From positions 124,001 through 188,000 of the forward strand of contig NZ_ML974128.1 of NCBI RefSeq assembly GCF_004765815.2: DNA of 64,000 nucleotides, read 5' to 3'. The notes below the pieces were generated by a model. That model saw only the letters and a list, made by a program, of their open reading frames with translations, was not told the origin of the DNA and made no database searches. The position numbers and the translations under genes are program-made. Of the stretch, positions 20,425 to 24,249 are shown in pieces. Origin of the DNA: Halorussus salinus (GTDB lineage Archaea > Halobacteriota > Halobacteria > Halobacteriales > Haladaptataceae). Each line of letters starts with the position of its first letter. Position 1 is the first letter of the stretch.

Positions 20425-20847
20425 TCAGAGGTCTCGCTGCATCGTAATCGCCGCGCTCCCGTCGTCGTAGTAGTCGTCCTCTCGGCCGACTTTCTCGAAG
20501 CCCATCGACTCGTAGAGGAGGCTCCCGGCGTCGTTGTCCGGATGCACCGAGAGCCGAACCGTCGTGCAGTCTTGCTCGCGGAGCAAATCGAACGCGGCCG
20601 CGAGCAGGCGGCGAGCGCGCCCTTCCCGTCGATATTCGGGCGCGACGACGATTTCCGCGACGTAGCTGGTCTCGTCGTCGTGGAGCGCGACGAGGTAGCC
20701 CCCGAGGTCCTCCTCGGGCGTCGTAGAGACCAGCACGACCGGCGGACCGTCGATGGCGTAGGAGAGGAGGGCCGGATTCGGCTCTCGAAGGTGGGTCTGA
20801 ATCTCGCGCAGGGTGGCGCGGTCCTCGGGGCGAGCGAGTCGAATCAC
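20425..20847 (-). CDS. GNAT family N-acetyltransferase
   Basis: A 140-residue acyl-CoA-dependent acetyltransferase of the GNAT superfamily. The acetyl-CoA pyrophosphate-binding motif is RREGRARR, after the beta-4 strand AEIVVAPEY. It ends with the LYESMGFEKVGR element common to the RimI-like branch. It starts with GTG at 20845-20847, overlapping the stop of the upstream DUF92 gene by 4 nt (GTGA), so translation is coupled. The substrate (protein N-terminus or small amine) is unknown. Confidence 0.85.
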   Translation of the reverse strand: MIRLARPEDRATLREIQTHLREPNPALLSYAIDGPPVVLVSTTPEEDLGGYLVALHDDETSYVAEIVVAPEYRREGRARRLLAAAFDLLREQDCTTVRLSVHPDNDAGSLLYESMGFEKVGREDDYYDDGSAAITMQRDL

Positions 20848-22157
20848 GGCAGGACGACCACCGCGAGACCCGCGCCGACGAGCGCCCCGGTCAGGGTGGC
20901 GAGGAAGTTGACACCCTGATTCCCGAGCGCGTCGCCTTCGAGGGTCGCGCCGAGCAGGCTGTCCATCGTCATGCCGCTGACCCCCGCGAGGGCGACCACT
21001 CCGGCACCCGCCGGGCCGACGCTCTCGAAGAGGCCCGCCGCGATGGCCGCGACGACGGCCGCGCCCGCCGCGCCAGCGAGTTCGCCCTGCCACGTCACCG
21101 CGCCGTCGGTGCCGGGTTCGACGCGTTCGAGCGTGGTGATGAGCCGCGGGCCGTCGAAGACGCCGCCGATTTCCGACGAGAGGGTGTCGCTCATCGCGGT
21201 GGCGATGGAGCCAGCGAACGCGAACAGGAACACCTCGCCGCCGAGCGCGGGGAACTTCGCCTGTGCGGCGTAGCCCAGCACCGCCACGAGCGCGACCGCG
21301 GCGTTCCCGAGGACGTTGCCCGACCCGCGCGCGCCCTCGTTCTCCTCGGCGACGCCGCGGGCCTCCTTCTCCTCGTAGCGGAACTTGGTCGAGAGGCTTC
21401 CGATGCCGAAGAACGCGATGAGGACCGCGAACCAGCCGTACCCGCCGAGGACGATGGTGAGCATCGCCAACAGCGCGCCGGTCATCATCCCCGCAATCGA
21501 GGCGGCGTCGAGCGCCCACGAGACGTAGCCGAACAGCGCGGTGACCGCCAGCGCGACCGCGATGCCCTCGACGGTCACCATCACTTCGAGGTCCGCGAAC
21601 AGCCACAGCAGGAACGCCACCGAGAGCATGACCAGCGGGTCGTCGCGGACGAACAGCACCGAGCGCAACAGTCCCGCCAGAAGCGCGCCGCTGGCCGCCA
21701 GAAAGACGATTTCCGGCAGGATTGGAGTGACCTCCGTGCCGACGATAGTGAGCGCGACGGCCTGTCCGGCCGCGGCCGCGACGATCCCCCCGGCGACGAA
21801 CGCCCCGGTGCGGAGAATCGGCTCGGCGTCGAAGCGCCACGCTACCTGCTGGGCGAGGTTGCCGTAGCCGACGACGAGGAGGCTGGCCACCAGCACGTGG
21901 TCGGGCAAGCCCGCGAACCACGAGAGGAGCGCGATGCCGGTCGCGGCGAAGCCGAACGCCGCGAGGCCGTGGAGACGGCCCTCCTGTCGGTCCGCGGGGC
22001 GGGCGAACCACTCGAACACCGGTCCGTCGGTGACCGAGAGCGCGCCCACCGCGACCGCACCGAACACCGCGGCGGTCGCCCACCCCAGCGTGGGTGCGAC
22101 GAGCGCCAGCGTCGAGACGACGGCGTATGCCGCCGCACGCCGAACTCTGGTGGTCAC
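20844..22157 (-). CDS. DUF92 family membrane protein (VTE6/TMEM19-like)
   Basis: A 437-residue integral membrane protein with about 12 hydrophobic segments. The C-terminal half matches the DUF92 family: GIGSLSTKFRYEEKEARGVA, then SIATAMSDTLSSEIGG, then GMTMDSLLGATLEG. Plant and cyanobacterial members (VTE6) phosphorylate phytyl phosphate to phytyl diphosphate, so an isoprenoid-phosphate kinase role is possible for archaeal homologues but is an inference. The N-terminal half is hydrophobic and less conserved. It starts with GTG at 22157, preceded by a GGGGGG ribosome-site-like stretch, and overlaps a GNAT gene. Two cis-prenyltransferase homologues lie just beyond. Confidence 0.8.
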   Translation of the reverse strand: MTTRVRRAAAYAVVSTLALVAPTLGWATAAVFGAVAVGALSVTDGPVFEWFARPADRQEGRLHGLAAFGFAATGIALLSWFAGLPDHVLVASLLVVGYGNLAQQVAWRFDAEPILRTGAFVAGGIVAAAAGQAVALTIVGTEVTPILPEIVFLAASGALLAGLLRSVLFVRDDPLVMLSVAFLLWLFADLEVMVTVEGIAVALAVTALFGYVSWALDAASIAGMMTGALLAMLTIVLGGYGWFAVLIAFFGIGSLSTKFRYEEKEARGVAEENEGARGSGNVLGNAAVALVAVLGYAAQAKFPALGGEVFLFAFAGSIATAMSDTLSSEIGGVFDGPRLITTLERVEPGTDGAVTWQGELAGAAGAAVVAAIAAGLFESVGPAGAGVVALAGVSGMTMDSLLGATLEGDALGNQGVNFLATLTGALVGAGLAVVVLP

Positions 22158-22703: not shown

Positions 22704-23312
22704 GTGGGAGTCTACGACCGCTATCTCGCCGCCCGCCTCCGCAGACACGGTGCCGACACGCCCGACCACATCGCGGTCATCATCACCGAGCGCGACCTGC
22801 TGGAACAGGGCGCGTACGCCACGCTCGAAGCCTTCTTCGAGTGGGCCTTCGAGTACGGTGCCGAGCGCGTGACCGTCTACGTCAGCGTCCTCGACCCCGA
22901 GGCGGCCCCGACGTTGCGCCGCGAACTCGAAGGGGTGGCGGCTCCTCGGCAGTTGGCGGTCCGCGGGCCGGAGGACACCCAACGCGCCGACGCGCCGATT
23001 CAGGTCTCCATCGGTCTCGGCGGGAAACACGAGTTCGCGGGCGCGGTCCAGAAACTCGCCGGGGATGTGCAGGACGGCGAACTCTCCGCCGAGGAGATAG
23101 ACGAGGCCGCGGTCGAGGAGCATCTGGTGTTCCCCGAGAACCCCGACCTCGTGTTGAAGACCGGCGCGGAGCGCCTCTCGGACTTCATGATCTGGCAGTC
23201 CGTGTACTCGGAACTCTACTTCACCGACGTGAACTGGCGGGACTTCCGGAAACGGGAGTACCTGCGGGCGCTGTTGGACTACAAGAACCGACAGCGCCGG
23301 TTCGGCCGGTAA
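22704..23312 (+). CDS. Non-canonical cis-prenyltransferase homologue (NgBR/Nus1-like partner)
   Basis: A 202-residue divergent member of the UppS/cis-prenyltransferase family, starting with GTG. The position of the catalytic DGNR motif is occupied by HIAVIITERD, so the catalytic aspartate is absent. The C-terminal part is well conserved: ERLSDFMIWQSVYSELYFTD, and the chain ends QRRFGR, retaining the RxG motif that in E. coli UppS and in eukaryotic NgBR contacts the IPP substrate. The convergent gene one base downstream encodes a homologue with DGNRR but without the RxG. A heteromeric polyprenyl diphosphate synthase is inferred; such pairs are known in eukaryotes and reported in Methanosarcina. 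Confidence 0.8.
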   Translation: MGVYDRYLAARLRRHGADTPDHIAVIITERDLLEQGAYATLEAFFEWAFEYGAERVTVYVSVLDPEAAPTLRRELEGVAAPRQLAVRGPEDTQRADAPIQVSIGLGGKHEFAGAVQKLAGDVQDGELSAEEIDEAAVEEHLVFPENPDLVLKTGAERLSDFMIWQSVYSELYFTDVNWRDFRKREYLRALLDYKNRQRRFGR

Positions 23313-23313
23313 G

Positions 23314-24249
23314 TCACTCGACCGACGACTCGCTCTCGACTTCCAACTCCTCGACGCTCAACTCGTCGATACCCGACTCCTCGGGCAGACTGCCCCGGAA
23401 GCGGTCGATGACGCTCCGGGCTTCTTCCAGTTCCACGCCGCCCAACTCCCGGACCAGCGCGAGCGCGCGGTTGGCCTTCGCGCGCCGCCACGACTCCTCG
23501 CGGGACTCGTAGGTCCGGATGCCCCGCAGGAAGTCGATTTTCGAGAACTCCGGCCAGTAGGGCGTGCAGAAGAACACCGCCGCCTCGTTGCCGTTGGCGT
23601 GCCACGGCAGGAAGTTCGAGGTCCGCTCGTCGCCGCCGGTCCGGATGATGAGGTCCACGTCCCGAACCGGACAGTCGTAGATGCGGTCCTCGATGGCCGA
23701 CACGTCGATCTCGTCGGGGTCGAGTTCGCCCTCCTCGACCGCCCGCGCCACGTCGCGGGTCGCGTTGAGGAGTTCGTTCCGGCCGCCGTAGGCCAGCGCG
23801 ACGTTGAGCGTGAACTCGTCGTAGTGGGCCGTCCGGCCCTCCGCGTAGTCGATGGCGTCCCGGACCCGCCCCGGAAGCGCGTCCCGGTCGCCGATGACGC
23901 GGATACAGACCTCGCCGTCGTGGACGCGCTCGTCGTCGCCGAACTCGTGCAACTTCGTCTCTAAGAGGTCGAACAGCGCCTCGTTCTCGTGGTCCGGGCG
24001 CTCGAAGTTCTCGGTCGAGAAGGTGTACAGCGTCAGCTCCTCGACCCCCATCTCCTGACACCAGTGTAGCACGCGCTCGGTGGTCTGTGCGCCAGCGCGG
24101 TGGCCGTCCGGGGCGTCGCCGCCCTGCTTGCTGGCGTAGCGTCGGTTGCCGTCCTGAATGACCGCGACGTGCGTCGGTGCGCCCGAGATTTCCCGTCTGA
24201 GGAGCCGTTCGTAGGCCGCCTGCACTCGCCGCTGTGCCCACTGTAGCAT
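23314..24249 (-). CDS. uppS: Tritrans,polycis-polyprenyl diphosphate synthase (cis-prenyltransferase)
   Basis: A 311-residue cis-prenyltransferase, adding IPP units in the Z configuration to make the polyprenyl (dolichol-type) carrier of glycans. Seen are the catalytic HVAVIQDGNRRYA with Asp33, TLYTFSTENF, and the IPP-binding DLIIRTGGDERTSNFLPW. The usual C-terminal RRFGG is missing; instead there is ESREESWRRAK and a roughly 60-residue acidic extension. The ATG at 24249 gives the expected N-terminus MLQWAQRRVQAAYERLL. It is tail-to-tail with the non-canonical homologue (stops one base apart), suggesting the two proteins work together. Confidence 0.93.
   Translation of the reverse strand: MLQWAQRRVQAAYERLLRREISGAPTHVAVIQDGNRRYASKQGGDAPDGHRAGAQTTERVLHWCQEMGVEELTLYTFSTENFERPDHENEALFDLLETKLHEFGDDERVHDGEVCIRVIGDRDALPGRVRDAIDYAEGRTAHYDEFTLNVALAYGGRNELLNATRDVARAVEEGELDPDEIDVSAIEDRIYDCPVRDVDLIIRTGGDERTSNFLPWHANGNEAAVFFCTPYWPEFSKIDFLRGIRTYESREESWRRAKANRALALVRELGGVELEEARSVIDRFRGSLPEESGIDELSVEELEVESESSVE

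Follow-up and report, generated by a model that had tools for sequence, protein, structure and literature searches.

Gene pair and feature coordinates

The locus considered here comprises two adjacent homologues of cis-prenyltransferases (cPTs) and a gene for a neighbouring membrane protein, and lies in a stretch of 64,000 nucleotides of Halorussus salinus DNA (the window; all positions refer to this whole stretch). The features, with the labels 'partner' and 'catalytic subunit' used below for the two putative cPT subunits, are:

20844..22157, minus strand: gene for an integral membrane protein of the DUF92 family (PF01940/TIGR00297), divergent to the partner gene; PF01940 E-value 1.9e-56
22704..23312, plus strand: putative NgBR-like non-catalytic cPT subunit ('partner'), 202 aa; PF01255 E-value 1.4e-27
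22782..22796, plus strand: ITERD in the translation, partner residues 27-31, at the site of DGNRR in other cPTs
23157..23180, plus strand: KTGAERLS, partner residues 152-159, remnant of the IPP-binding RTGG..R.S
23298..23309, plus strand: C-terminal R-F-G-R of the partner (R199-F200-G201-R202), i.e., RxG plus one residue
23314..24249, minus strand: putative DHDDS-like catalytic cPT subunit, 311 aa; PF01255 E-value 2.8e-67
24139..24153, minus strand: DGNRR, residues 33-37 of the catalytic subunit (D33-G34-N35-R36-R37), with the catalytic Asp33
23611..23643, minus strand: RTGGDERTSNF, residues 203-213 of the catalytic subunit, IPP-binding segment
23317..23499, minus strand: C-terminal tail of the catalytic subunit, residues 251-311, helical and then acidic, RxG absent

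The partner gene starts with GTG at 22704 and stops with TAA at 23310-23312, its product terminating in ...NRQRRFGR; the catalytic gene converges on it and stops with TGA (TCA on the plus strand, 23314-23316), so that the single base 23313 separates the two stops. A preliminary description of this DNA had given the same coordinates and strands, and the same convergence with stops one base apart. Its account of the motifs is likewise borne out: the catalytic subunit keeps DGNRR (Asp33) and RTGGDERTSNF and lacks RRFGG, continuing past its WPEF region with SWRRAK... and then an acidic tail devoid of RxG, and the partner has ITERD in place of DGNR and ends with RRFGR.

Compared with a curated PF01255 cut-off of 27, the partner scores 97.2 bits and the catalytic subunit 226.9 bits. 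The match of the partner spans only its C-terminal half (residues 90-201), as would be expected had the N-terminal active-site half decayed. Both proteins have fold and family in common with the homodimeric UppS of E. coli and B. subtilis, and the C-terminal half of the partner is UppS-like. In UppS, however, the catalytic Asp and the RxG motif reside on one chain, a combination found in neither protein of the haloarchaeal pair, where the two elements are distributed over two chains; the E. coli UppS chain, moreover, continues beyond RFGG. In the whole genome, a search for PF01255 returned the pair only, and there is thus no third family protein to provide either missing element.

Motifs and gene distribution in Halobacteriota

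The division of motifs was surveyed in 172 distinct partner and 145 catalytic sequences, 141 of the latter having a complete N-terminus. None of the 172 partners carries DGNR at the active-site position, and every one of them terminates with R-(R/K)-x-G plus exactly one residue, the tail triplet being R-x-G in 169 and K-x-G in 3 cases and the final residue K or R in 144. Conversely, DGNRR is present in all 141 N-terminally complete catalytic sequences, and an RxG-like triplet occurs in the window of the expected position in 6 of 145 catalytic tails, all of which are short variable ends; the catalytic tails otherwise vary widely and are for the most part long, with a median of 58 residues following WPxF. 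The motif split recurs in homologues of both proteins (about 170 partners and 141 catalytic sequences complete at the N-terminus), which argues against chance; across the phylum, hardly any sequence departs from the complementary loss of motifs.

Residues D33, G34, N35, R36, R37, R203, R209, S211, N212 and F213 do not vary among 31 orthologues of the catalytic subunit aligned from across the phylum, and the invariant columns of the phylum-wide partner alignment include a W-Q..Y-S-E core as well as the R and G of the tail. Among 17 haloarchaeal partners, invariance extends to the ERD of ITERD and to K152, T153, G154, E156, R157, L158 and S159. That the partner might be a decaying pseudogene was considered and rejected, since it is full-length everywhere and the mean column identity of the 17 haloarchaeal sequences is 81%.

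A few variations on these motifs were observed. Although the catalytic Asp is lost, the haloarchaeal partners have kept the IPP phosphate-binding motif nearly intact, as KTG.ERLS, and its Arg is not conserved beyond haloarchaea. One non-haloarchaeal catalytic tail (L068, genome G341) contains RRFGG where sister sequences read RRYSS, and in a large haloarchaeal genus (g7; L265 and L266), where the partner is unlinked, the partner of some species contains some 25-30 additional, acidic residues ahead of the strand beginning with APVRI.

Co-occurrence was assessed in 242 haloarchaeal genomes from 72 genera (completeness 95% or better), using the partner protein as query and a 17-member partner profile for doubtful cases. 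All 242 genomes contain PF01255, 241 of them in at least two genes. The partner was detected in 242 and the catalytic gene in 241, the sole exception being a 120-contig draft (G072) in which the latter was not found. The partner of G021 is divergent, yet ends with ERRYGK, and that of G228 is split by a contig boundary. In a sample of 147 Halobacteriota genomes, PF01255 is present in 145, nearly always as exactly two genes, and both types were identified in 143, each with a clearly partner-type match; two further genomes of one family (G250, G258) have a second gene unassigned to either type. The remaining two (G248, G256), drafts of one genus (g79), retain DUF92 and have no PF01255 gene, reflecting either real loss or incomplete assembly. 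The preliminary description had proposed that frequent genomes with only one of the two genes would speak against a joint enzyme, and such genomes are not frequent.

When located within 20 kb of each other, the two genes converge in all 89 haloarchaea concerned and in 35 of 36 other Halobacteriota. With convergence in nearly all linked cases, the tail-to-tail order is probably ancestral. The pair is unlinked, i.e., far apart or on other contigs, in 22 of 111 haloarchaea and in 28 of 64 other Halobacteriota; both genes are kept in these genomes, and their retention is hence independent of linkage.

It might be argued that the 202-residue protein serves an unrelated purpose, as an enzyme or binding protein in its own right, and that adjacency and co-occurrence result from shared ancestry only. 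The genes are indeed convergent and do not form an operon, 20-44% of the genomes have them unlinked, and the partner gene has a second linkage, to DUF92, which in some lineages is seen with the catalytic gene elsewhere. However, the catalytic Asp is gone from all partners, the RxG motif is conserved to the last residue, and co-occurrence is near-universal in a phylum whose Methanosarcina counterpart is a reported heteromer. We therefore regard an unrelated role as highly improbable.

Comparison with one-chain and two-chain enzymes

Sompiyachoke and co-workers reportedly described, in 2022, a heteromeric cPT from Archaeoglobus fulgidus, which, like the pair studied here, would be a two-component enzyme from an archaeon of this phylum. 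For Methanosarcina mazei, also of this phylum, MM_0618 and MM_1083 have been reported to constitute a heteromeric cPT with C45-50 products (Emi et al. 2019, as cited in PMC8131916), and Methanosarcina-type genomes carry both a DGNRR protein and an RxG-ending one. Specifically, the three PF01255 genes of Methanosarcina sp. 2.H.T.1A.6 encode a DGNRR-type protein, a partner (L183, ending with KRQRRYGR) and a short full-profile copy. A genome grouped with Methanosarcinaceae via its partner sequence (G351) has a third PF01255 gene that is near-identical to MA1831/MM_0014 (E-value 5.2e-122). With the third gene being of the MM_0014 type, the other two would, by elimination, be the counterparts of MM_0618 and MM_1083, a correspondence that is one step indirect, since it was drawn via other Methanosarcina-type genomes and not from the M. 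mazei sequences. By this elimination, the pair in the window would represent the haloarchaeal version of the reported heteromer. Differences are nonetheless apparent: the pair is unlinked in the Methanosarcinaceae sampled but adjacent and convergent here, the haloarchaeal catalytic tail is acidic, and the third enzyme of the MM_0014 type, present in some Methanosarcina-type genomes, is absent from the H. salinus genome.

The pair likewise resembles human DHDDS-NgBR, in which the catalytic chain contains DGNRR without RxG and the non-catalytic chain ends with RxG plus exactly one residue, and the preliminary description had rightly pointed to both the Methanosarcina and the human enzyme as known systems of this kind. 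The tail of NgBR (R290-L291-G292-K293-COOH) sits in the DHDDS active site, where the backbone nitrogens of L291 and G292 bind the S2 phosphate and the carboxylate of K293 contacts R37 and R85 of DHDDS (PMC7573591), and the geometry of the partner terminus, R-F-G-R-COOH, is that of RLGK-COOH. Profile comparisons with the PDB point in the same direction: human DHDDS is the best match of the catalytic profile built from 31 orthologues (E-value 1.5e-72; bacterial UppS 4.9e-68), and the partner profile, for which UppS ranks best (3.1e-35), aligns to NUS1/NgBR up to the last residue (1.8e-10). The sequence of the partner, however, has more in common with bacterial UppS than with NgBR, and, unlike NgBR, the partner has no N-terminal transmembrane segment, but starts directly at the cPT-like domain; these two features count against a heteromeric enzyme.

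An AlphaFold2 model of the partner (51-row alignment; pLDDT 83.6, pTM 0.82), which begins with a helix (residues 3-14) followed by a strand (22-28) and is weakest at the tail and in the stretch 150-170, was assigned to the cPT fold by Foldseek, with TM scores of about 0.6-0.7 to UppS and DHDDS. The model of the catalytic subunit, for which only ten alignment rows were available, is weaker (pLDDT 66); its core matches UppS and DHDDS. In DHDDS, a helix-turn-helix at the C-terminus tetramerises the complex; in the C-terminal region of the haloarchaeal model, helices 237-270 and 274-285 are predicted, mostly with pLDDT <50. Mean-field direct-coupling analysis (DCA) of 82 pairs (Meff 54) placed 2 expected-interface pairs among the top 200, as compared with 11 expected. 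This lack of interface enrichment likewise counts against a heteromer, although we judge the analysis powerless, because its intra-chain pairs are not contact-like either.

Complementary motif loss, near-universal co-occurrence and co-retention of the genes when far apart thus support, at the level of sequence, the heteromeric enzyme proposed in the preliminary description. Considered along with the pair being the sole PF01255 genes of the genome, the Methanosarcina heteromer, the NgBR tail geometry and the profile matches, they make it very probable that the pair encodes one obligate heteromeric cPT, the tail of the partner completing the catalytic site. The 311-residue protein would carry the active site, with the catalytic Asp33 and the allylic and IPP pyrophosphate sites, and the 202-residue partner, its own active site lost, would dimerise with it via the conserved cPT interface. 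The R-F-G-R terminus would then thread across into the active site of the catalytic subunit, where the tail Arg and the x-G backbone may close off the substrate/Mg site and arrange it in the way known from NgBR and DHDDS. We infer that the chains would assemble physically, that the tail would be inserted, and that activity would depend on both chains. The product is most likely a medium-chain polyprenyl diphosphate, which would serve as precursor of the dolichyl-phosphate glycan carrier.

Alternatively, the DGNRR protein could be a self-sufficient homodimer, with the 202-residue paralogue acting only as an activator, membrane anchor or chain-length regulator. MM_0014 is active as a homodimer without RxG (PMC8131916), and DHDDS alone, likewise as a homodimer, shows weak residual activity (PMC7573591); both findings count against an obligate heteromer. 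Furthermore, two genomes combine a single detected partner with two (G068; L264) or three (G219; L261, L262 and L263) catalytic genes, which would suit self-sufficiency, but also fits a partner shared by the extra copies. MM_0014, however, bears a closing tail of its own, TLGG (PMC8131916), whereas the catalytic tails of the present set vary and are mostly long; a mere anchor would have no need of an RxG motif kept at constant spacing from the C-terminus, and co-retention of the two genes is near total. Hence, we consider a self-sufficient homodimer unlikely. In another genome (G193; L260), a second pair is found with both duplicated genes on one strand.

The obligate heteromer, a mechanism already known as such and for which our literature search found no paper concerning haloarchaea, would extend the reported Methanosarcina case to a near-universal rule of Halobacteriota, according to which an enzyme for the glycan carrier lipid is built from two chains, as in eukaryotes and unlike in bacteria. 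The significance of the pair resides in this phylum-wide rule and in the link to DUF92 described below, and not in a novel mechanism. Descent of the eukaryotic two-chain enzyme from an archaeal one becomes testable, and genetically tractable haloarchaea such as Haloferax would offer a simple, anchor-free model for human DHDDS-NgBR.

The divergent DUF92 neighbour

The product of the gene at 20844..22157 matches PF01940 as listed above, its TIGR00297 match falling below the curated cut-off of that family. Next to the partner gene and divergent to it, a DUF92 gene is found in 84 of 94 haloarchaea and 46 of 96 other Halobacteriota (130/190), and the orientation is divergent in 130 of 130 linked cases, including lineages in which partner and catalytic gene are separated. 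This conserved divergent linkage suggests that the DUF92 protein is a third, uncharacterised member of the pathway. VTE6, a plant member of the DUF92 family, is a phytyl-phosphate kinase, and with low confidence we propose polyprenyl or isoprenyl phosphates as substrates of the archaeal protein, within the pathway of the cPT; a literature search for an archaeal role of DUF92 found no paper. It is tempting, if rather doubtful, to speculate further that a DUF92(-)/partner(+)/catalytic(-) module existed before the radiation of Halobacteriota, with DUF92 serving the dolichyl-phosphate pathway at the level of polyprenyl or isoprenyl phosphates and the partner being the hub between DUF92 and the synthase. 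The conserved neighbour is a specific candidate for a pathway step without assigned protein, and DUF92 is present in all 147 Halobacteriota genomes of the sample.
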